A DNA stretch of 64,000 bases from positions 310,001 to 374,000 of the forward strand of contig CM065648.1 in NCBI GenBank assembly GCA_033220425.1, in the 5' to 3' direction. The notes beneath the pieces were generated by a model that saw nothing but the letters and a program-made list of their open reading frames with translations, was not told the DNA's origin and did not search any database. Within the stretch, counting starts at the first letter, position 1. Each line of letters opens with the position of its first letter. This stretch comes from Lepraria neglecta (lineage: Eukaryota > Ascomycota > Lecanoromycetes > Lecanorales > Stereocaulaceae). A program made the position numbers and the translations under genes. Below, one piece after another: positions 4,761-42,800 of this stretch.

Positions 4761-5930
4761 AGGTTGTGGCATTATTTGATAAGCATAGAATTAAGACTCG
4801 AAATGCTAGTGGTTAAATTTACGCTCCCCTGGCTGGTATTTTTCCTCAATCGTCGCTTTAATATGCCCTTGAATTAACCTGAAATATCAATGTTGGAGCG
4901 GTGAGCCAGCCATTCTCTGCTCTGTCTCCATCAATGCAATCAATTAAGATATCGAAGCTGAGACTTGTCCATTCTTAGCTCAATTCACCTCAGAGAATCC
5001 TTATTTCTAGAGCAAAGGCAAGGACGTTCGAGGCTCAAAACTCTTCTAAAAATGACGAATACGGCGGTTTGCGAAGCCAAATCATTGCCAGTTTTGGTGG
5101 CCGGTGGCCGGTGGCCTTATCAGAAGCACTTGCACGCTCACCAGTGATGCCAATTCACGGATAACAGCCACTTTGTATATTGCTTGCTTGGAGGGATTAA
5201 AGACCAAGTTCCGGCAAACAGGTGACTCAGTAGCCTTTCTATTTCGACATTATCGCTAGGAGATTGTCCTAGTTTTTCAGCATGTAGAGTTCAGCTAGTT
5301 GCCGCTATAGCACTCTTATTGGGGAATTGAACTCAACATAAGTATGCCCTATGTTCGATCACCCTAGGTATTCGGGGTTTTCCTACGCTTTTACTGAATC
5401 AGATGCTGATGCAGGACTGGGATGTGGTTGCTTCTCAGGTCTCACGTAGCTCTTTAAGTGCAAGAAGACGCTTGTAATATGAATGGATTCGGCTATGCCG
5501 ATGACACGAGGGGCTCTCCTTGCTTGCTCTTGACGAGGGTCGCGAAGTCGATACCGCCTCATCTTCGACCGCTTTAAGATACCTTGCTAGGCCTTAACGG
5601 CTGTCACGAAGAGTACCTATCCATCTGTGCATCTGTCATCTGCAGTCTGCCCGCAGGCTGACCCATCTAGGACTGACGCGCCTTTTGACAATTTGTACGC
5701 AAAAGCAACGCAAAAGCAACGCAAAAGCACACCGCAATTACACAGAAGATTCCAACCAAAATTTAAACAAAGCTCCCCTGGCTAATAATCAGAATACCGC
5801 CGCCGTGAGGCAAAGTAAAATAGAAAAAAACAACGCTCAAAGAAAGTTAAGGTAACGATTGTGATAGGGGTATCTTCGCAGAAAATCTCGGAATCCTAGG
5901 CAAAACTTCTTCATCGCTTTCGGGTGGTAA
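4761..5930. other. 1.2-kb intergenic region
   Basis: No supported gene. A direct tandem repeat of an 11-bp unit (ACGCAAAAGCA, three copies) lies at about 5698-5730. Numerous stops in all frames. Confidence 0.5.
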
Positions 5931-6909
5931 TCAAGTTGATGATCTCTGCCTCTTTCTTCCTTCTTGATGACTTATCATATGGCGCTTGTGGTGATCTTTT
6001 CGGAGCGTCTTGTAGTCGCAGCTAAGGCATGTGAACATTAGCTGCGGCGTCGGCCGGCTGTCTGCATGGACTGTGTCTTGATGACGGCGTAAGTCCTTGG
6101 GGATCGTGAAGGCCTTTCCGCAGTTCTTGACATCACACAAGTGTTTCTTGTGGGTCTTTGCGTGTCGACTGTCATTGGTCAGTCCATCTGGTTGGACCTG
6201 TTATTGAGAAGCATACGTACGTCAGTTGAGCAGTGGACGCGAAGCTGTGTGCGCACTTTGTGCATTTAACACGAGCCGCCATCGGCTGAATTGGTAGATA
6301 GGCTAGGCCCGGTGGCTTGGTAGATGCAGGTTCTGAGCGCGTCAGACCCAAAGAAACATGCTTTGGCGGCAAAGTATCAGGAATAGTACTTGGTGACAGT
6401 AGTGGTATTTGTGATACTGGACGACTTGAAGTGTCTCTATCACTGGAGGTTGAAGAAGAGGGATTGCCGGTAGTAGGTGGCGTAACATTTATTGTAGCTG
6501 GCTGTTCGAAAAACGATGAAGAAGAATGAGTGCTATAACCAAAGTCGAAGTCATAGTCCAGAATAGGCTCGGCAGCGAGTGAAACATCCAATTCCGGTTG
6601 TAGCATTTCCCAATCAAAATGCCGGTCCGGAGGCACGTCTCTTGCACTTCCACGACCTGAATGCAGATCAGGGAAGGGCGCACCGAAGGCATCTTGGGGT
6701 GCTGGTTCAAGGGACGCGAATCCTCCGAAGTTTGATGGTCCTGGCGAAAACGATTGATCCAGAAATGGATCTCCGGCTGCCGAGATCTGGGATTGATCAA
6801 AAGAATGGACAGATCCGCAAGGATCAAACGCAACATGTTGAAACTCTCTGTGTAATTGCGGCGGGCTGGACTGATAACCTACATAATGATCATATTGGTC
6901 TGCAGGAAT
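5931..6909 (-). CDS. three-finger C2H2 zinc-finger protein, copy A
   Basis: A probable transcription factor. The first exon runs to 6221. A 52-bp intron (6220-6169, GTACGT...ACAG, phase 2) splits finger 1 after QLT, and exon 2 is 6168-5931 (238 nt). Fingers after splicing: C-x2-C-x12-H-x3-H (CTKCAHSF...HAKTH), C-x4-C-x12-H-x4-H (CDVKNCGKAF) and C-x2-C-x12-H-x3-H (CLSCDYKT...HMISH), followed by a basic tail. The N-terminal ~220 residues are Ser/Pro/Asp-rich and look like an activation region. It is a paralogue of the gene at 11973-13260, with identical exon-2 and intron lengths. The 5' end is unresolved: the open frame extends to 6942, but the first in-frame AUG is well inside (M of EMLQPE, near 6606). 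Similarity to copy B begins before that (LRANVI.A...DH). The given start at the ATT codon is a placeholder. Confidence 0.8.
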
Positions 6910-6940
6910 GACGTTCGCGCGAAGGCTGGCCTCCGCGCAA
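6879..6940 (-). promoter_or_regulatory. conserved leader hairpin plus 5-codon upstream AUG mini-ORF, copy A
   Basis: On the minus strand, 6940-6915 can fold as an 11-bp stem (TTGCGCGGAGG against CCTTCGCGCGA) with a CCAG loop and two G-U-type pairs. Twenty-one nt later an AUG (6893-6891) opens a mini-ORF of M-I-I-M-stop (ending 6879). The same arrangement lies ahead of copy B. Role inferred, not shown. Confidence 0.55.
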
Positions 6941-7033
6941 GGTCAACGCAGGGTATTGAAGGGGGCCTAGGAATTATTGTCAGAGCGCATTTCTGGACGA
7001 CGAAGAGCTAAAGGAAGAATGAAGAGAGTTACC

Positions 7034-7470
7034 TGCTGAAGGGCAGGAGGGAGGCGCACACTGCGCCGTGGGAGCTACAGTGGTATTCAATGGCTTTTGG
7101 TTGTCGTTCAACGGTCAGGACGTATATACATGAGCGTGTGGAGAAGGCGAGTAGGAGCGTAACAATGTCGAAGAATGGTAGTCAGAGATGGGATAGGTGA
7201 GAAGATGACAATGGGCTACTATTGGACAACTCGGGCCTAAGCCCAGTTGCCCAGATGAACGCGCACTGGTGCAAGTGCTGAAGACTATCAACAATATAGC
7301 AGGTGAAGCGAGAAATTTTGAGAAGAGAACACTTGGGTGAAGAACAAGGGAACCTCTGGAAAAGACGCAGTCAAGTAATAGCCGGATTGCCCCAGGCAGA
7401 TGAGCCGCCACATCCTATTGGTGGCCTCCTAGTGCATCAGCCCCATGTCATGATTGGTGGCCTCACCAAC
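7034..7470 (-). promoter_or_regulatory. promoter region of C2H2 copy A with two CCAAT boxes
   Basis: Two copies of ATTGGTGGCCTC (CCAATs on the minus strand) lie at 7417-7428 and 7453-7464. The same 10-12 bp word occurs twice ahead of copy B. A probable leader intron donor, CAGCAG|GTAACT (about 7034), is also shared with copy B. Between this and the relic at 8124 no gene is supported. Confidence 0.5.
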
Positions 7471-8123
7471 ACAGCCACCCAAGCATACGATGCACACAGA
7501 CGCCCAGATTTGGAGTGTAGGTGTATGGTAGTGTTGAGAGATGGCGGAACTGTCGTATAGGATGCTGATGTTGCACACGGGAAGTTTCCAGACCCGATCT
7601 TGCCGATCTTGTCACTAAAGCCACCTTTCCAGAGCCCTTTCCAATGATGGCGATCGATACGATCCTTGACAAGATGTCTGAAGATATGTCACACTGTTTT
7701 ACTTCATCACCGACAACGCTCAAGATTCCGCCTTTTTGCCTTGGCCTTTTGTATTGTCTAAGTCGTGAGCCTATCCGTATACTAGTCTTCTCATATTGGG
7801 GGGCTTGCCCTCACGCTCTTCTAATGTACCACCAAAACAAGTCAAATACACCAAAGCTACTACTCCAAAGAAGTCGATCATGCAGCTCTTCTGGTGGATG
7901 CCATGTGAACAAGGATCCTGATCTTAACCGTCGACAGCCAATTAGAGACGCAGATTTCATCCGCGAAACGTCTAATGTCAAGAAGCCATTGTGAGAACCC
8001 AACACAGACCCTACAACCTCCAAGCATTTCCGAAGGGAGAAACACCAAGGCCACGCTGCCAGGAGCCGTCATTACCACTCACAAAATAAATACAAACCGG
8101 CCTCAAGAGAGCTTGCGGGTAAT
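7471..8123. other. spacer, no supported gene
   Basis: Short unrelated frames on both strands only. It may include the decayed 5' part of the relic that follows. Confidence 0.35.
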
Positions 8124-8910
8124 TTGTTTCCGCAATCGGGTCTTGACGAGGATGAACCAGCATGCTGGAACGGGATAGAATGCCTGTCTCCCCCTGTAAA
8201 AGACTACTTTGAAGGTCCGGAATCAGAACTGGAGATGCTTTTACAGCCCGAGACCAGGCCAATCTCTCATGAACAACTCGTGATAGAAGTCGAAGGTATC
8301 TACGCTAGATTAGTCAGGGTCGAAGTGAAGTGCATTGATATTGATGAAAGAGATTCTGCTGCAGCCCAAGGAAAAGGACTCATTCAAAAGGACCCATGAA
8401 AAACAATCAATGGCAGTCTCTTATCGCACTCCACAAGCAGCTACTTCACGAACATCATGATTTCTTTCTAGCATCTCAGCATCCTTCTGTAAGCCCAGCT
8501 CTAAGCAGACTCGCTTCAAATATCCAATGCCGGCGAGGATGTGGCAGGATTTTGGACTACCCGAGGAAGACAACTAGAGAAACTCTTACGAGAATTATAG
8601 GCAAATCTTCGTGTCAGAGTGCTCAGGGGATTTAAAGGAAGAGTATCAGTCTGAAAGTAAGGTCCTCGACGGTACAAAGGCAGAGTCAGAGATGACCTAT
8701 CCGTATCCTGAAAATCTGCCATGGTATTTCCCTTACGCCTGGCTTACCAATGGAGTGATTGACGATGACGAATGTGTACTGGACATGCCATCGATACATG
8801 AGCCCCTAACGGAGAGGACGTTTTGGCTTGGGTATCGGCTTGCTTCCGTTAGTCTCGCGATATACAGTTTTCATATTTCCGTTGACAAGTGACTAGGCAA
8901 ATAGTTGGAT
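8124..8910 (+). pseudogene. decayed EST1-like (DNA/RNA-binding domain) fungal gene
   Basis: The frame from 8124 gives QLVIEVEGIYARLVRVEVKC and an acidic linker. A 1-nt shift at about 8397 (CCC run) is needed to continue into NNQWQSLIALHKQLLHEHHD, FFLASQHPSVSPALSRLAS. A further 1-nt shift at about 8525 (AAA run) leads to KYPMPARMW. From memory, this order (QWQALIALH, EHHDFFLASQHPS, KYxMPARMW) is typical of a widespread ascomycete family annotated with an EST1-type DNA/RNA-binding domain. After ARMW the expected RHGIHSFLE block is absent, a TAG follows, and the sequence diverges to FWLGYRLASVSLAIYS. I read this as a truncated, frameshifted relic. The protein match is from recognition only. Confidence 0.6.
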
Positions 8911-9428
8911 TCGGTACGAGCTTGAGAAAAGAGAATTCACAGCAAACACCTACAATGAAGATCAACTAGAACCTGAGTACGTCCATATCGACAGACAAGC
9001 TGCTACTACCAAAGGGAAGAGGACATTCAAGCTATTCAATCCTTTTCCAAATCTGTAGCTATCGACACTACGTTTACACAAACAATCTTATCACGAGCAT
9101 GAAAAACCTTCACTACCAATACAGTATCTAATCATCACAAATGTTCCCAAGCTTGTGTGCTCGCAAAGGAAGAGGAAGGAGTAGAAGTGATGAACCCTTG
9201 GTCTAATCTGCCGGATCTCATTGGGAAGGCAAAGATTCAAGCGTGGAAGAACGGTGCCGGCAAAAAAGGGGACTGGAGGTCATCTCCTTATACCAAATCT
9301 GGAAAAAGCGCCAGCAACCCACTGTCCGCAACCAAAATTTGAGAGAATGCTTAGACCATGTCTGCTCAGCGCCTTTCCAGTCACCAACTAACTAGTAGCC
9401 TATTCACAATATCACAGTGCCTACCAAT

Positions 9429-10605
9429 ATGGTGCGTCCACAAGTTGCATTGCGCCCCTTGACTACGCCTTCATACGGAACGTAAACGTGGGGTTCGCAA
9501 CACTTATAAATAAGACTCCGCCAAGCTGCATGCTGTTGAAGACCATGATGATGAAGAAGTCGCAGGATTCGGGATCAAATTTGGCGTTGATCAGAAAGAT
9601 GTCGAGTGAGTATATGGAACAATACTATGAGAACATTGTGCATTTCAGTGTTATCAAACAGACTGATACTCATCCAGCTCCGTTGAATCGCCCTGGACCA
9701 TCTTCCCTGCCCGAACACCATATTTTCCGGCCCCGACAGATTTTGGCCTAATGAGAAGCGCTCATAAAGCGAGAATGTGCTCTCTGACTCATCTACTCCC
9801 ATAGGAATCCTTCACGGACGCCATTCTCGGCGGATTCCTCCGTCTGAAGGGCCTAGTCCGTACTGAGCCTCATTACGAGCTCTACGCCGCCGAGTCGCTT
9901 ACCAACGAAAGCCAACAATACGAGGTCAGATCGTACATGGTCCGAGGTCTATCTGCTAAAGAGCGAAACTATCGGATTAGAAATTTGAAGAGGTGTACTA
10001 CGATGACTTCGTTTGTGGGCTCTTTAGAGCAGGCAGAAAAGAAGTGGATCGTCTTTACAAAGGCTCCTATAGAACTCGAACCACATATTTCTAAGCAGTG
10101 TGGTCCTGTGTGTCCTGTATGGTGGACCAAGGAGGAGTATGAGAGTGCCTTCCCAATGCTAGGTAAATCCAAACCTCCCACGTATAGAGCAGCCGACATT
10201 GGAATCTCCTGGAGAGACGCATTAGCTGGTGACTCACATAACCCCAGCTTCACAACTGCGTTGGAAGAGGAGCTGGTGAAGAGGCTAGACCCTAATCGAT
10301 TGCTTCAAGTGATCAATCTGCTCCGCAAGCGAATGATGGGAGCTCATGCTTCTGGCTCCCAAAACGAAACGTACATTCCACTTCCCGAGCGACGGATCAA
10401 GGTAAAGTCCTTGGAGCAGAAGACATGTACCAGAGAGCGGCAGCGGCTCGCAAGGCAAGCGAAACGAATGTCAGAGGCCTCTCAAATGAGTTGCAAGTAC
10501 ACGGTTGATGAGTTAGAGGATCAAGTAGAATGTCCCGGGGTAGAGTGGAAGAGATACCTCAGAATGATAAAGATAGAGTGTGTCCTGTTTGTCTCGTTGA
10601 GATGA
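9429..10605 (+). pseudogene. decayed fungal hypothetical gene
   Basis: Reading with small frame corrections gives one coherent protein: MVRPQVALRPLTTPSYGT from 9429, a shift near 9482, VNVGFATLINKTPP, a shift near 9525, LHAVEDHDDEEVAGFGIKFG, then an intron (9606-9677, GTGAGT...CCAG), SVESPWTIFPARTPYFPAP, DFGLM...SLTHLLP, an in-frame TAG at 9802, FTDAILGGFLRLKGLVR, HYELYAAESLTNE, YEVRSYMVRGLSAKERN, and on to TGA at 10603. Such blocks (WTVFPxRxPYxPAPxDFGLM, ...RGLVxRDPxxELYxAExLTNE, ...VRGLSxxER) look like a repeated ascomycete hypothetical family. I cannot name its function. Two shifts and one stop make it a pseudogene. The segment 9937-10605 alone is open for 222 codons. Confidence 0.55.
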
Positions 10606-11484
10606 ACTCATCAAAGACGTCTGCTCCTGAATTGAAACGCTAAGAGGAGCAACTGGCACACGGAAATGAAGCAGTGAAACAGCTTGCGTGTGCTCAGCGA
10701 TTTTCGTTGGCTTACATATGCTCTTGATTGAACGCCGTATCGGGAAGAGCCTCCATGACATCTAATCTATCACTCACAGTGGGAGTTAAGAAAAGAAGGC
10801 AGCGGAGAAGAATCGTCGAAAGTACTCTGTAGATAGTGCCTTTTCCGGCTACACTTGTAGGTATCTCCACAATATCCTTTCGGTGTGCGCATAGGCATAC
10901 CAAGAATATTGCTGATACATACAATGTTGCAACAGGTATAGAGAAATCCAAGAGGTAGCTTCCGAGCACACTCTTTACGAGCTTGACTTACGGATGGACC
11001 GTAGGATAATTGCTAGTATTTGAGTTGCCTTCGTGAAGTTACTAGAGGATCTTCTTCGCTTCTTGGCATTGCAACTTTTCAAATTTTATTCCGTCAACGA
11101 TTGACTTTGTTAGATAAATTTTTATACAAAAAGCATAATGCTTATTTCTGCGATTCTATCACCGCAAAAATAATAACATTCTGTCAGGCATTGCTTGAGA
11201 TATCATCAATTAAAAATTGGTTGAAGATTTGAAAGATCTTGCCCTCGGCACTAGCTGGTATCCGCGAATTTTCTTAAATTCTTAATATCTCAACAACTAC
11301 TATATAGAATTTTATTATTCTTGCAGTGTTAGAGTCGCGGTATTATAGGCTTTAAGATCCTCTTCTAGAATTTAATGGTTGTGTTGAAGATTTAATATTC
11401 ATTAGCGGAGGTATGGAAAAGTTGAAATGCTAAGAAGTGAAGATCCTGCATACGCTAAATTATCCCTAGGCGAATTCGTCCCGC
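10606..11484. other. AT-rich degenerate spacer
   Basis: After about 10985 the sequence becomes visibly AT-rich (runs such as AAATTTTTATAC, AAAAATAATAAC) and has no coding potential on either strand. It leads directly into the foldback element. This could be RIP-eroded repeat DNA, but base counts were not computed. Confidence 0.5.
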
Positions 11485-11654
11485 GCACGGCATCGCCAAA
11501 ATAAAATTCAATATGCGCCCCGGAGCCGCCCCGGAGCCCCCCTCCGGGAGCCTCCCGAGATATCCCTGGCTGGGGAAGGCGGGGCTGCTTAGGGGCGCTT
11601 TAGGGGCATTGCTTAGGGCTCCCCTCATTGAATTTTATTTTGGCGATGCCGTGC
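11485..11654. mobile_element. 170-bp foldback/MITE-like element with 28-bp perfect terminal inverted repeats
   Basis: The left end GCACGGCATCGCCAAAATAA (continuing AATTCAAT) is the exact reverse complement of the right end at 11627-11654. The interior is GC-rich (several GGAGCC and TTAGGGGC words) while the flank is AT-rich. A 3-bp CGC directly abuts each end and may be the target duplication. There is no coding capacity, so it would be non-autonomous. The parent transposon is not in the window. Confidence 0.8.
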
Positions 11655-11972
11655 CGCGGTCTCTTCCCGTGCATTGGAACTCATGGTTCCAAGCTCGTCC
11701 TCCTCTTAATGGTCCAAGAAAGTAATTCATCACATATCGTCAATAGAAATTTCGCTAGTTGCAAGAATAACGACTGAAAATTTACCAAGACGATACTGCC
11801 TCCCATGCACTCGGTACTTGATCATCCAAACCTGAAACAGCCCAAAACCATCCTAAGTACACTAAAAGCTCTCAGCAATAGAGCACGATCAAACCCGACG
11901 AAACGATAACAGCGGAGTACAAATCATCATTACCATCCTCCGAGGGTGGCAATGCCTGGTTACAAAACTCTC
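11655..11972. other. spacer downstream of C2H2 copy B
   Basis: 318 bp with no gene. It probably contains the 3' UTR of the minus-strand C2H2 gene. Confidence 0.4.
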
Positions 11973-13260
11973 TTAGTCCTCTCTCCTCTTTCTCTTCCTT
12001 TCGTTCTCATGACTTGTTATATGGCGCTTGAAATGGTCCGCTCGGCGTGTAGTGTAGCCACAGTCGCCACAGACCAGTAGTTTTAACAACGTTGATACTG
12101 TGTCTGCATGAACAGTCTGGCGATGGCGGCGAAGGTCTTTGAGGGTCGTGAAGTCCTTCCCGCAATTGACTATATCACAAGCGAATCTCCTGTGGCTTTT
12201 TGCGTGACGCCTGTAGGTCTGATGAGTGGAAACGATACTGCTTGACTGACAAAGACACTTACGCAAGTTGAGCGCTTGACGCGAAGGTTTGGCGACAATC
12301 CGGGCATCGGTAAGAAGGCGCCGGTGGCAGTGCCAGATGAGTTAGTTGAGGCACCACTTCTGAGGGCGGCGACTTGGAGGACGCAGGATTGGTCCACGGT
12401 GAATCCACAGGAAATTGTGCCGGACAAAAATTGCCCGAAGTCGAAGAAGGTGAAGTCAGAGGAAGTAGCGATCCAGACCGATTTGAAGGATTTGAATCGC
12501 TGGGTGTTGAAAGAGAGAAATGGCCGTTGGCCGTGGTCGCGCTTTCAATGGCGTCCACGTGTCTAGAAAATGGTAGTGATGATTGACTGCGGTAATCAAA
12601 GCCACAGTTCAGAGCGAAATCAACGTCGACAGAGAGATCCAATTCTAACGGTAGCGGTCCAACGTTCAAACAATGCCAGCTTTCCGGATCATATTCTTGA
12701 TCCTGAGGGAATTCGGTGGCATCTCTCCCATGTGCTACTTTACTCTGAGAAGTATCGATGCTTTCGCTTCTAACGCCTGGAGCAGGGCTCCCTCCGCTTC
12801 TAGCGATTCCTTTCCCTCTCTCAGCATTATCCCTTCTCAGGTCATCCCTATATGGCGGAGGTTCGCTTCTTTCTTTCCAGAACAGAGAGGAGTTCGTTCC
12901 TTTTTCAAGCTCTGGTTCGAAGCTCAAGCATGCACCATAGCCAGGTTGTAGACCCCCAATGTGAAGGTTCGAACACAGGCTGGGATCGCGCGCTCTAAGC
13001 GTATCTTCCAGTGCTGATTCAAAGAATTCCGAGGCATACTCCTCATATTTCTGGTGTTTTTTATTATCAATAGCCACACATTTTGAATTGTTGGTAGGTG
13101 TCGAATATAGAAAAGGGTCTTCAAACGTCGATATCCGAGATCGGTCGAACGAGTGAACAGATTCGTCGGGTTCACGCTCTACATGCTGAGAGCTATTGCA
13201 TGAACTCAGCCGGCTGGGCTGCGACTTCGTTATGTGATGATCATTGTGTTCTGCAAGGAT
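11973..13260 (-). CDS. three-finger C2H2 zinc-finger protein, copy B
   Basis: A probable transcription factor, paralogue of the gene at 5931-6909. The long first exon ends at 12263, a 52-bp intron (12262-12211, GTAAGT...ACAG, phase 2) interrupts finger 1 after QLA, and exon 2 is 12210-11973 (238 nt). Fingers: CPDCRQTF...RHAKSH (C-x2-C-x12-H-x3-H), CDIVNCGKDF...HRQTVH (C-x4-C-x12-H-x4-H) and CGDCGYTT...HITSH, then a KRKRRED-type basic end. The N-terminal ~330 residues are Ser/Pro/acid-rich. Shared with copy A: LRANVI.A, QHV, SVHSFD.S.IS, DPFL. There is no in-frame AUG anywhere from the upstream TAA (13308) to the intron. All AUGs in this exon's leader are in other frames and close quickly. The given start (ATC) is a placeholder for a non-AUG start or an unseen upstream exon. 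Confidence 0.8.
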
Positions 13261-13293
13261 GACGTTCGCGCGAAGACAACGGCTTCGCGCAAA
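13230..13293 (-). promoter_or_regulatory. conserved leader hairpin plus 5-codon upstream AUG mini-ORF, copy B
   Basis: On the minus strand, 13293-13283 (TTTGCGCGAAG) pairs with 13275-13265 (CTTCGCGCGAA) in an 11-bp stem around a 7-nt loop. Twenty nt further, AUG at 13244 starts M-I-I-T-stop (ending 13230). Compared with copy A, stem bases differ but pairing is kept. Confidence 0.55.
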
Positions 13294-13377
13294 GTCAACT
13301 GCAGTTTATCAGATTGAGACCTAGGACGGACCGTCAGTGACAGGAATTTTGCAAAAGATTCTGGCAAAGAAGGATTT

Positions 13378-13720
13378 ACCTGCTCAATGGCAGGAATTGA
13401 GTGTTGAGGACGCTCTTTGATGCAAAAATGAGGAGGCGGAAACCTGGGCCGAAGCCCGAAGTCCCTTTGGGAAATGTACTGTAGAAGTGCGAAACAGTGT
13501 CAGAGGCTAGGTGATTCCTTCTGGCAGCTCCGCAGGAGGAGCCGTAGTGGAAGGAGAAAGCAAGAGCGGGAGAGTAAGCTGCCTTATAAGCTGCGAGCGG
13601 GGCGAGCCCGCCTTTCAAGCGAATTGATAACGCCCGAACCCCTCATTGGTGGCCTCTCTTGCGATTATGCGGGTTGCGTTCCCCCAAGGTGGCCATTGTG
13701 ATCATTGGTGGCCCCAGGGT
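13378..13720 (-). promoter_or_regulatory. promoter and leader of C2H2 copy B: TATA plus two CCAAT boxes
   Basis: ATTGGTGGCCTC at 13645-13656 and ATTGGTGGCCCC at 13704-13715 are minus-strand CCAAT boxes matching those of copy A. CTTATAAGGC (TATAA core at 13585-13589) lies about 55 bp downstream of the nearer box. A candidate leader intron donor GAGCAG|GTAAAT (about 13378) and a CCTAG acceptor (about 13322) are shared with copy A. No AUG lies between the TATA box and the mini-ORF. Confidence 0.55.
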
Positions 13721-13896
13721 GACCTAAGCGATGGCTGCGGGCGAGCACCTTATTTTCCTTTGGGGTAGCTTACGGCGGGTGGTTCTTCTCATACGACACT
13801 TATACTAGCTCATCTGTCTCAGCAAGAGTGAGGCTGAAACCCTACATCATCTTCAATTGCTCCAGAATAAGTTCATATGCTTGCACCCCACAAGTC

Positions 13897-15806
13897 ATGG
13901 ACCCACTCTCTGTATCAGCATCTATAATTGGTATTCTTGGCGCAGCAGCCAAAGCATCTTCCATGTTGATCACCTTTGTGCAAAATACGAAGGCAGCCCC
14001 GAAGCTTGCTCAGACTGTGCTTGCCGAAGTCAATGGCCTAAGTGCTGTTCTCGGCCACCTACAAACATACCTTATAGGCGTTGCAAGCCCCTCTAAGTCC
14101 AGGGCCTCACTTATCTTGGTCGAACAGGTCATTGTGACCCTGGCAGAATGCGTCACCACATTTTCCGAGCTCGAAGACCTTCTCGGTATTTCAGACCATA
14201 ATGATATGGCTGCACTCGACCGCATGAAATGGGCCATGAAGGAGTCAAAGGTATCTGACATTCAGAGAAGGCTACAGAGCAACAAATCTTCGTTGACACT
14301 TATGCTCACAATCTTGCAATGGTTCGCTAGCCCTTTTTCATGACTGTTCTCGTTTATCTCACATGAGATTTGGCATTGATTCTTTATTAGCAAGTCTATG
14401 GAAGAGGCAGAGTCCGCAATGACGCGCTTGTGTGATCTGGTAGAGCAAGTGTTGGCCAACAACCAGGACATGAGCCGGCGCCTGAGAAATATGGATGATA
14501 AGTCCACCTATCAAGCAACATCAATAACATCAAACGTCAAAGATGGTGCTAGCACCACATCGAGTAGGACGGTCACTCCACCCCCAGACGCTCCTGAAGA
14601 TACCAGGACCGATTTTGTGCAACGGAATCATTTTGGGTTCGCGTTTGAAGAAGACCTCATGGCGTCTCGTGTGTATCGCAAACCTCTCTTCAGCGACTCT
14701 GGAGAATCGCTCGTAACATCTGCGGCCAGGACCACGGCGTCATCCATACTATCGGCGCTTAGTTTGACAGACGTCTCAAACATTTCAATTTTCGCAGTCC
14801 CGATTTATGCCCACGAGATCACTAACAGTGGTCGGTATGTGTTTGGAGACTTCCAGCCGGCAGCTTTGGACGTACAGGAACAGCAAATACCAGCAAAACT
14901 ACTCAAAGAGACACTGAAAGCTAACAAATGGGACGGTTTTGCTTCTGCTGTCTGGCGCCGCAGGAGGAACAAGCTCTCTAAGTCGGGTGCCTCGCTAGGG
15001 CCAGAACCAGCTGTTCTAGGCGTCCCGCTGTATGAGAGTATCAAATATGCCAATGTGGCTATCTCTCTTACCAATGAAGAGGGTGAAAAATACATATATG
15101 GCTACGTTCCCCTCTATGTGGCCAAAATTGGAGTCTTCCTTAAAGAGAAAGGTCAGTCCTCCATTCACCTCTTTTTGCTCACGCCGGTCTTCAATCCATT
15201 TTTAGACGAGCGCGTATTGATATTGCTCATCTAGCTACGGACCTGCAAGACGTTTTTACCATTAGTGGATCCCCTCTTCGCTTGCAGGAGCTTGAGGCTG
15301 CTTTCAACGAGCCTCCAAATTACGGCAAGGGGTTTGACTGGACCGGATACACGGTACACGATGCAGCCAGCATCTTGCTAAGATATCTCTTGCGAAGTCC
15401 TGAGCCTGTCATACCACTTGTAAAATACCAAGCCTTTCAGAAACCCTTACGACCATATTCATCTTTCTCGACAAACCTCAGTGACAGTTCTTTCGAAGAG
15501 GACGTAGCGATTCGTGAATATCAGCGGCAAATCACACTTTTGCCGCCTCTATCGCGTCAACTGCTTCTATATCTATTGGACTTGCTAGCTGTCTTTGCTT
15601 CAGAATGCGAAACCAACAGAATGACTTCGTTTTGCCTGGCTGCAGTCTTCCAGCCAGCAATCCTTTCGCCTGTGAAGGCAGGTGAAGATTTCATCGAAGA
15701 AGAGAAGTCTCGTCAAATCAGTCATCAAGTGCTCATTTTCCTGATTGAAAATCAAGACTCATTTCTGGTTGGCATGTCAGGAACGGCCGTAGAATCCGGA
15801 GCATAG
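13897..15806 (+). CDS. Fungal_N-type N-terminal domain fused to a degenerate RhoGAP domain
   Basis: Three exons (13897-14321, 14391-15151, 15211-15806) encode 593 aa. Start chosen at MDPLSVSASIIGILG, the usual opening of the fungal STAND/NLR N-terminal domain; an in-frame ATG lies 23 codons upstream. Residues ~1-150 form that helical domain. Residues ~200-300 contain SALSLTDVSNISIFAVPIYA, a signature seen in fungal relatives. The C-terminal ~280 residues match the Sac7/Bag7 RhoGAP type: VPLYESIKYANVAISLTNEE, IYGYVPLYVAKIGVFLKEK, GKGFDWTGYTVHDAASILLR, QLLLYLLDLLAVFA, MTSFCLAAVFQPAIL. The canonical GIFRxSG arginine finger is VFTISG here (R to T), and the Asn of MTxxNLAxxF is Cys. So it probably binds a Rho-type GTPase without accelerating hydrolysis. 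The second intron uses acceptor GACGAG at 15210, chosen because it alone keeps the frame. Confidence 0.82.
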
Positions 15807-39882: not shown

Positions 39883-42800
39883 ATGTCAGAGAGCAATAAT
39901 GATGCAACCACGAAGCTTGGTAGGTACAGCTTGCGTGCTGTGTGGTTTCCACGCTATTGCCCAGCTTGCCCAAATATATTTGCTAATGTCTCTCTATACA
40001 GAAGACCCCATACCTAGCAACAGTGAAGACAACCCCTTTCAAGAACCCTCGACCGCCATGGTAAATGGAGAAGCTACATTGCCAGCGAATGGCGAGGCGA
40101 AGGAGGAGCAGACTACCGACAGTATGTCCAAATATTGCATGACGGGCCCAGAGCTGACAATTGCGAAGATGTCTTCCAAGTCAACATCAAGCTCCCCCAC
40201 CACCCTTACCAGATCCAGATCATGGTATCTACCCAAGAGCAAGTTCAGGACCTTCGACAATCCATCATGGACTCACCGGGAACTTTCCAGTATTCTTGTT
40301 TCCACCTCGAACACAATGACACCCGGATCAATGACTTCGTCGAGCTGTCAGAGGTCAAAGGACTGGTGGCAGGCTCGGAACTAAAATTGATAGAAGACCC
40401 ATACACAGAGAAAGAGGCACGGATGCACTTGATTCGGATACGGGAAATCATTGGAGCTGCGGGGAATAGGATAGACACACTCCATGGTATCTCAGCAGGT
40501 TTATCCCTCCATGACACCGTCTCGCCTTGGAAGGACCCCAACACGACCTCTGCTGCCGCAAACAAAGCTCTCAATGGCAACACGTCCGGAAACCTCAATC
40601 CCTTGTTAGACTGTTCATTCGACGGTCTACCTGCGGTTTCTACCATCATACCATCAAAACAAGAACAACCGCCGAAGACTGTAAAATCCATTGGCCTGTC
40701 TCCTTGGAACCCTCCACCTCCATTGCTGCGCCAACAGGGCCACCTACTCTATTTACAACTTACCACAAACGAAGGCGAACAATACCAGCTTACCTCTCAT
40801 ATATCAGGATTTTTCGTGAACAAGTCATCGAACAGCAAATTCGATCCATACCCAAGACCAGCGCCAAAAAACGTAGCTGCTCACTCCCTCTTTTCCCTAA
40901 TTGCAAACCTCTCGCCATCCTTCAAAAAATCCTTTGAAGCTTTACTTGAATCAAATAACAAGCGGGACCCCTTAGCAAGTTTCCAACTGACCAACGCTAT
41001 TCCGTCCAGTCCGTGGCTTGTTTCCCCTGCAGTCAATTCCCTGTCGGCTCATCAGCCAGATCTTACAAGGACGCAAGAGACATACCTGATATCTGGGATT
41101 GAGAATACAGAGACTTTACGGGATTGGAACGAGGAGATTCAATCGACCCGGGAACTACAAAGAGATACTGTTCAGGACCGGGTTTTCAGGGAGCGGCTGA
41201 TATCAAAGATCTTTGCAGAATTTAACGATGCAGCTGCTCGTGGAGCTATGATGGTCGCACGAGGAGAAGTGGCACCTCTGAACCCTACAGAAAGCAAAGA
41301 TGCACAGATTTTTGTGTACAACAATGTCTTCTACTCGTTTGGGGCTGACGGCGTAGGCACTTTCACTTCAGAAGGCGGCGATGAAGCTGCTAGAGTAGCC
41401 GTTGGAAAGGACGTTGGAGGTGTGAAAGCCGTCAATCAACTCGATATAGCCGGCTTAGCGGCCCCTGGTACTATGATTGTCGACTACTTGGGCAAGCGTT
41501 TAGTCGCACAGAGTATCGTTCCCGGCATCTTCAAGCAACGAGAACCTGAAGAGCATCAGGTCGACTACGGTGGCGTGGAAGGCAGAGACGTGGTCGCGGA
41601 GAACGAGGCATTTGTGCCGACCTTTTCTCAGGTCTCGAAAGCTTTGAAAGTGAAAAAGCATGCTGTTTGGGATAAGGAAGGCAATAAGCACGTACTCGAA
41701 GGAAGCGTCGAAACGAAAGGCCTTCTAGGCACCGACGGCCGCAAATACATCCTCGATTTATACAGACTCACGCCGCTAGATATCACTTGGCTTGAAGAGA
41801 ATTGGAGCGATAACACCGACGAAAACGCGAAGCCCAGCACGCACAACTACCCCCACCGCATGACCGTATTGAGGCCGGAGCTTATCGAATCGTACTGGGG
41901 ACTCAAAATGGGCGAATATGTGAAAGACGAACTTGAAAAGCGAAAATCAACAGGGACGAAACTCCAAACCCCGTCTTTGACTAATGGGTCAGAAGAAAGC
42001 TCAACAAATGGGGTCAATCTGGACGGAAGAGAAAGCGCAGCAGGAAGCAAGGAAAGAACTGTCGAACAGAATGCTGAACAGGAGCGTGTCGATATATCAG
42101 CTTTCTCTCTAACCCTCAATCCAGATGTCTTCTGCGCGCAGGTACCACAGACAGACGAAGAGAAGGAAGAATGGGCAAGAGACGAACGGGAAGTGCGAAC
42201 TGTTTGCGAACACCTTCACGACAAGGTCATACCCGATGTGGTAAATTCTTCCCTGGTCTTCTTGACTTACTTTCCTGACCATTCTGTTCGTTTAGATACA
42301 CGATCTCAAAGAAGGGGAGGTCGGCTTCCCCATGGACGGCCAGTCCTTGAGCCGGTTAATGCACAAACGAGGTATCAACATGCGGTACCTCGGAAAGCTC
42401 GCTAGACTTACCAAAGAGGAGGACCCCCGGTTACGGGCTCTGAGATCATTGACTATACAGGAAATGATTGCAAGAGCTTTCAAACACTTGGCTAACAACT
42501 ATCTAAGAAACCTGTCAATGGCTTTCGCTACAAGTTGCTTAGCTCACCTCCTCAACTGCCTATTGGGTACGGGTCTCAACAAAGCACCGAAGCCACACCT
42601 TGATGAGGACCTCAAGGATCTATACAATGATGCAGATTACTCCTTCGCCAAAGTAACTCCCAAGAGCTTAAAGTCTGACCTTGAAGCTCAAGTACAGCTA
42701 CGGTATCGACATTCTCTTGAAGAAAACTGGATACTGGATATCAAGCATCTTCAGCTTTTGCGAAGTATCGCGCTCAAGCTTGGTCTACAGTTAATCGCCA

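Follow-up and report, generated by a model that had tools for sequence, protein, structure and literature searches.

The window analysed here, a 64,000-nucleotide stretch of DNA, carries two C2H2 zinc-finger genes on the minus strand: gene A, which ends at position 5,931, and its tandem paralogue gene B, which ends at 11,973. The two copies lie about 6.3 kb apart, and their features are collected in Table 1. The genome searched comprised 42 Mb in 11 contigs, and its fungal assignment in this analysis was read from introns and genes. The B product, queried with a slightly wrong exon join, matched PF00096 with 43.7 bits (E=2.7e-11), above the curated cut-off of 25.2, and the A product reached 24.9 bits, just under that cut-off. 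A and B are tandem C2H2 zinc-finger genes and as such probable transcription factors.

The products of A and B shared the residues QHV, the motif SVHSFD.S.IS..DPFL and the zinc fingers. Differences between the exons numbered 92, 73 and 133 at the first, second and third codon positions of 215 aligned codons (third positions, 133 of 298), in an alignment that was poor in mid-exon. Across the 36 codons of the finger stretch they numbered 9, 12 and 15 (third positions, 15/36), a modest bias. Because the two copies have these protein segments in common and differ most often at third positions, the C2H2 open frame looks real in both genes, as judged from sequence comparison. The N-terminal frame of B found only B and A in the genome at E<1, with one further match at E=1.87, and an RNA model of the hairpin block built from A and B revealed no further copy at eight loci around distant C2H2 and weak matches. 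No fungal relative emerged from prokaryote genome and viral collections, the sole match being one MAG locus that agreed over 11 residues. CCAAT-box-like repeats, ATTGGTGGCC on the plus strand, were observed upstream of both genes, at 7440-7464 for A and at 13632-13656 and 13691-13715 for B, which suggests a common promoter feature.

Table 1. Features of gene copies A and B in the 64-kb window
Feature	Position	Strand	Remarks
Copy A putative leader intron, GTAACT..CTGAC..CCTAG	6967..7032	minus	66 nt; canonical signals, aligned with B
Copy A fold, 5' side: CUGC, UGAC, 5' arm UUGCGCGGAGG	6930..6951	minus	non-coding in any shared frame
Copy A core hairpin, stem TTGCGCGGAGG/CCTTCGCGCGA, loop CCAG	6915..6940	minus	11 bp
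Copy A AUU, probable start, context aacgucAUUcc	6907..6909	minus	sole near-cognate in 34 codons
Copy A out-of-frame mini-ORF, ATG ATC ATT ATG TAG	6893-6879	minus	A at -3
Copy A coding exon, main frame from AUU	6221..6909	minus	308-aa spliced product, first Met at residue 102
Copy A putative intron	6220-6169	minus	52 nt
Copy A last exon	5931..6168	minus	contains the greater part of the C2H2 domain
Copy B putative leader intron, GTAAAT..CTGAC..CCTAG	13321..13379	minus	59 nt
Copy B fold, 5' side: CUGCAG, UGAC, UUUGCGCGAAG	13283..13304	minus
Copy B core hairpin, stem TTTGCGCGAAG/CTTCGCGCGAA, loop CCGTTGT	13265..13293	minus	11 bp
Copy B AUC, probable start, context aacgucAUCcu	13258..13260	minus	first in-frame near-cognate, aligned with the AUU of A
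Copy B out-of-frame mini-ORF, ATG ATC ATC ACA TAA	13244-13230	minus	A at -3
Copy B coding exon, main frame from AUC	12263..13260	minus	belongs to a 348-codon Met-free open frame
Copy B putative intron	12262-12211	minus	52 nt
Copy B last exon, C2H2 fingers	11973..12210	minus	PF00096 match; 411-aa Met-free spliced product

A block of 66 nt was 81% identical between A (6886-6951) and B (13237-13304, minus strand), and it was found nowhere else in the genome. Around it, the identity was 40% in exon 1, 49% in the intron and 44% in the stretch before the fold. Within the fold, 83% of positions agreed in the 5' arm (19/23), 2/5 in the loop and 15/16 in the 3' arm, that is, the hairpin arms were conserved and the loop was divergent. 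From the AUU of A or the AUC of B (together, AUY) to AUGAUCAU the identity was 19/24; it then fell to 46% up to QHV and was 65% (53/81) from QHV on. The exact pattern of the 3' arm occurred in the genome only in A and B, the other 27 of 29 matches carrying two mismatches, and the reversed pattern, used as a control, gave 38 genome matches.

The alignment of A and B was interrupted by two gaps of 1 nt, one within the loop and one close to the base of the fold, and the main frame of copy A was closed by a TGA in the 5' arm. Because of these two gaps and the TGA, the 5' arm lies outside any shared frame, and its conservation would therefore reflect a constraint on the nucleic acid itself. Between the block and QHV the two copies differed by a gap of 3 nt. 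As the 1-nt gaps lie upstream of the 3' arm and the gap to QHV is a multiple of one codon, the shared frame begins between the loop and QHV. The identity of the 5' arm exceeded the 42% of the neighbouring non-coding background (p=8e-5), and codons for the same residue were identical in 8/9 cases in the block versus 31/88 in the rest of the exon (p=0.003); both p-values come from a comparison of two homologous copies, assume independent sites and refer to segments picked once the alignment had been seen. These results suggest that the block is constrained beyond its amino acids.

The earlier note on this DNA had described, in both copies, an 11-bp stem followed after 20-21 nt by AUG-AUY-AUY-(AUG/ACA)-stop, with the loops CCAG in A and CCGTTGT in B, and this observation was confirmed in the sequence. 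On both strands of the window, 39 hairpins combined 10 or more uninterrupted pairs with a loop of 3-8 nt (25 on the minus and 14 on the plus strand). Only 3 of the 39 had at least six G-C pairs, and A and B were two of these three. Against dinucleotide shuffles, the z-scores over 73-75 nt were -2.8 for A and -3.6 for B and fell to about -1.5 in both copies over 139-143 nt; the folding signal is therefore local. By folding energy, A ranked 70th and B 115th among 12,785 overlapping 75-nt windows of the minus strand. The hairpin of A and B is more than chance.

For folding of the presumed leaders, transcription starts were assumed at about 7,290 (A) and about 13,590 (B), from TATA-like sites picked by eye. 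The core hairpin was retained in these leaders whether spliced or unspliced, and in the spliced leaders the mean pair probability of the core stem was 0.97 in A and 0.99 in B. The fold extended past the 11-bp stem through UGAC/GUCA and CUGC/GCAG helices in both copies. Of the 19 pairs in the extended fold, 17 were invariant, one showed a one-sided change (G-U/A-U) and one was broken in B. The hairpin had earlier been called compensated; this description was too strong, as two-sided changes were present in 0/19 pairs, in a comparison of two sequences that could hardly show covariation. Rfam models searched against 5900-14000 gave nothing on the hairpin block and a single match at E<=1, at 7983-8061 on the plus strand, below the gathering score. 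HAC1-type loops follow the pattern CNGCNGN; a loop of this type was rejected, since the B loop fits the pattern partly and the A loop does not.

The block may alternatively be a DNA element, in which the palindromic sites TTCGCGCGAA and ATGATCAT are bound by protein, perhaps by the C2H2 proteins of A and B themselves, and the hairpin is a by-product of such a site being present twice. The 3' arm is a perfect palindrome, as is ATGATCAT, and the 5' arm of B closely resembles a second copy. TTCGCGCGAA also occurs in DNA modelled with animal E2F8, according to the available part of that source (PMC4686757). However, TTCGCGCGAA was not enriched, with 17 sites in the genome versus 31 for its reversed control, and conservation also included the UGAC/GUCA and CUGC/GCAG helices. 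The RNA model, which was built from A and B, matched them on the sense strand with 102 and 93 bits, far above the 24.5 bits of B and the weak 13.8 bits of A on the opposite strand; such opposite-strand matches are as expected from palindromic symmetry. A DNA element would moreover leave the missing AUG, described below, unexplained. We consider this explanation decidedly unlikely.

The main frame of neither gene appeared to offer a start codon of the usual kind. From its AUC, spliced B encodes 411 amino acids with no Met at all. Thirty stop-to-stop frames in the window reach 200 codons, and the 348-codon exon of B was the sole one free of Met. Spliced A, read from its AUU, has its first Met at residue 102 of 308, from which a truncated product could also be made. 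We searched for an upstream exon with an in-frame AUG among ATGs at or below position 7,900 (A) or 14,000 (B), using the donor GT[AG]N[GTA] and a branch motif, and obtained 0 models for either gene with one or two introns of 45-220 nt. When a single intron of 45-1,500 nt with any GT donor was allowed, 152 in-frame AUG models were obtained for A and 254 for B, of which 37 (A) and 44 (B) had consensus-like donors, with shortest introns of 777 nt (A) and 475 nt (B). Neither gene appears to have a normal AUG start.

These longer models leave room for the main rival, a hidden 5' exon that supplies the AUG via an intron that is long or non-canonical and terminates within the block. As a variant, the conserved TGCAG/A (6900 in A, 13251 in B; the slash marks the splice site) would be the 3' splice site and TTGAC the branch site, with the hairpin shortening the distance between them. 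YAG acceptors, including TGCAG/A, do stand in the open frame of both copies, and TTGAC lies immediately 5' of the stem with TGCAG 3' of it. However, no model with one intron and a consensus donor had an intron shorter than 475 nt, and by inspection no correspondence between A and B was seen among the 37 (A) and 44 (B) consensus-like-donor models, which this comparison covered; non-consensus donors accounted for the remaining 115 (A) and 210 (B). With the donor common to A and B, exon 1 of B would read TGA GCA G/ and so meet a stop four bases before the splice site, and both copies have an alternative acceptor, CCTAG, with its own CTGAC branch site. We regard a hidden AUG exon as unlikely.

The missing AUG could also be a loss in two genes that are now decaying relics or non-coding transcripts, the similarity of the block being due to local gene conversion. 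Start loss is plausible as an early lesion, A and B stand in tandem about 6.3 kb apart, and the third-position bias of the finger stretch is modest, as given above. Against this, open frames of 308 and 411 amino acids have been kept together with C2H2 motifs and matching 52-nt introns, and the exon differences by codon position again favour the third (92, 73 and 133 over the 215 codons). Since both copies have the same defect, decay would require an ancestral loss, and gene conversion would not account for arms that are conserved around a loop that has diverged. With their frames intact, the two genes are unlikely to be in decay, and we assign this explanation little chance.

As no usable AUG was found, the proteins probably begin at the AUU or AUC in the base of the fold. 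AUU and AUC are weak near-cognates. In the main frame of A, the 34 codons from the upstream stop to QHV (6942-6840) contained one near-cognate, the AUU at 6909, and no AUG. In the 39 corresponding codons of B, the AUC at 13260 was the first near-cognate and four more followed; further downstream in the frame, near-cognates made up about 10% of codons. AUU and AUC stand at the same alignment place in 2/2 copies, with G in the -3 and C in the +4 position. Within AUY, folding of the presumed leaders gave an unpaired probability of 0.02-0.16 for the A, 0.99-1.0 for the U and 0.88-0.95 for the Y. The conserved Ile codon is modest evidence for a start, because the block appears to be conserved at the DNA level. 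The near-cognate start is supported by exclusion, and an earlier guess that such a start is used gained strength: the spliced frame of B is free of AUG, and the two copies have one in-frame near-cognate in common at corresponding positions. The proposal of a conserved leader hairpin exactly where the C2H2 frame opens was likewise supported. Another candidate, stimulation of an upstream CUG by the hairpin, was rejected by eye, as the CUG conserved 11 nt ahead of the stem is in different frames in A and B.

The mini-ORF was separated from the hairpin by 21 nt in A and 20 nt in B, and its AUG lies 16 nt past the first base of AUU or AUC. It had been described as five codons long; the length is indeed the same in both copies, and it consists of four sense codons plus a stop. 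In simulated blocks with the same number of differences, the AUG and stop of the mini-ORF were kept in 15% of cases (P=0.15), so that its survival in both copies is unremarkable and near the expectation from local similarity; conservation in its own right was not borne out. Nor does the label of a minimal uORF fit, since the C2H2 frame is already open through the mini-ORF in another phase. Because the mini-ORF overlaps this frame downstream of the probable start, it would be an overlapping decoy and no classical uORF. On the whole, the interpretation offered in the earlier note was partly supported.

In the spliced leader, the AUG of the mini-ORF had an unpaired probability of 0.03-0.05 in A, where it was mostly paired, versus 0.41-0.78 in B, where it was more open; as its accessibility differs between the copies, its role may differ too. 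The presumed leader of B contained zero AUGs ahead of the AUC, and that of A contained one ahead of the AUU, opening a uORF of seven codons. B carried two extra out-of-frame start-stop ORFs on the minus strand, ATG CAA TAG (13193-13201) before QHV and ATG TAG (13179-13184) inside QHV. An ATG of A at 6836, located in the H-V codons where B has its ATG TAG, opens a 115-codon frame instead. Two routes from the mini-ORF AUG into the main frame were rejected. A -1 frameshift would require a slip within four codons, where no slippery site was seen by eye, and joining by an intron fails in B, which has no GT ahead of the stop.

Taken together, the reading that we prefer is that A and B have no usable AUG and that initiation occurs at AUU or AUC at the base of a conserved leader hairpin, to which we give a probability of roughly 0.57; from the sequence comparison and the exclusions we infer both this start and a role of the hairpin. 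Scanning 43S complexes would open and cross the hairpin, and a minority of them would initiate at AUU (A) or AUC (B), whose first base is predicted to pair in the UGAC/GUCA base of the fold. Complexes passing over AUY would reach the AUG with A at -3 located 16 nt on, where initiation would yield a four-residue out-of-frame peptide followed by a stop, and these complexes would be lost. As AUY would be missed by most complexes, protein output would be low. The output may be tunable via start-codon stringency (eIF1/eIF5) or via unwinding of the hairpin by a Ded1-like helicase or an RNA-binding protein. The hairpin might mask the base of the start region or delay the arrival of complexes; the switch would be an RNA-binding protein or helicase. 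We tentatively extend this to a structured AUU/AUC start, in which both regulators are made only from the near-cognate and the fold and the decoy AUG act as a sensor of start stringency or helicase activity; this fuller version is possible and we regard it as doubtful.

Proteins made solely from non-AUG codons are very rare. Human TEAD1 is a transcription factor. In the part of it available, a 2022 study gave EIF4G2, TRPV6, TEAD1 and STIM2 as the sole non-AUG cases together with several candidates, listed TEAD1 among these very few cases with an AUU start, and stated that the evolutionary reason is not known (PMC9789052). The best reading of A and B would resemble EIF4G2 and TEAD1. The main protein of mammalian EIF4G2/DAP5 is likewise thought to start only at a non-AUG codon; however, this is an experimentally supported GUG, the protein is an animal translation factor, and the accessible text does not mention a hairpin at the start codon. 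TEAD1 differs from A and B in being an unrelated protein, and a comparable leader fold is not mentioned in the excerpt available. If the reading is true, a fungal pair with the same start, fold and decoy AUG would be a small and genetically tractable model in which the reason for such starts could be studied. AUG-less genes would be easily missed or mis-annotated by pipelines that demand an AUG.

Near-cognate starts have also been reported in fungi. In the portion of the source available, 64 of 100 Pezizomycotina species have AUU, and 10 have AUC or AUA, at a conserved start of cpc-1 (PMC5487733). Neurospora cpc-1 is thus like A and B a fungal transcription activator with a conserved AUU that interchanges with AUC or AUA, but it also has a main AUG, and its near-cognates give N-terminal extensions, as described in the same partial text (PMC5487733). 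The mitochondrial form of Cryptococcus ArgRS starts at AUU, according to the available section of that report (PMC7049704). In both systems, as far as these excerpts go, the near-cognates make alternative forms, unlike the sole start proposed for A and B.

A duplex beside a start codon that tunes initiation in a helicase-dependent manner has been described for the GATA4 uORF-dsRNA (PMC10547706, available part), which in this respect is like the reading proposed here; however, the GATA4 duplex lies downstream of the start of a true uORF, whereas the hairpin of A and B lies upstream of the probable near-cognate main start. Stimulation of near-cognates by structure has been placed about 14-16 nt downstream of the codon in the accessible text of another study (PMC9082881), unlike the position of the A and B hairpin. 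The suggestion that the hairpin promotes a near-cognate start hence does not agree with the known geometry. Among the literature matches listed, none by title dealt with an AUG-less or hairpin-controlled fungal zinc-finger gene, the subscription literature being mostly outside the scope.

Other features were observed in the window. Adjoining B, a divergent plus-strand gene occupies approximately 13899-15806, and its open frame at 15144-15803 encodes a RhoGAP domain (E=1.3e-21). A MITE-like element of 170 bp with perfect 28-bp terminal inverted repeats lies at 11485-11654, and related copies were found at about 20 or more places across the genome (20 candidates were scored). An AT-rich segment at 11143-11345 contains a 72-nt imperfect inverted repeat (72% complementary). 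At 40027-42402, an open frame encodes a CLU (clustered mitochondria) protein (PF13236, E=5e-78).
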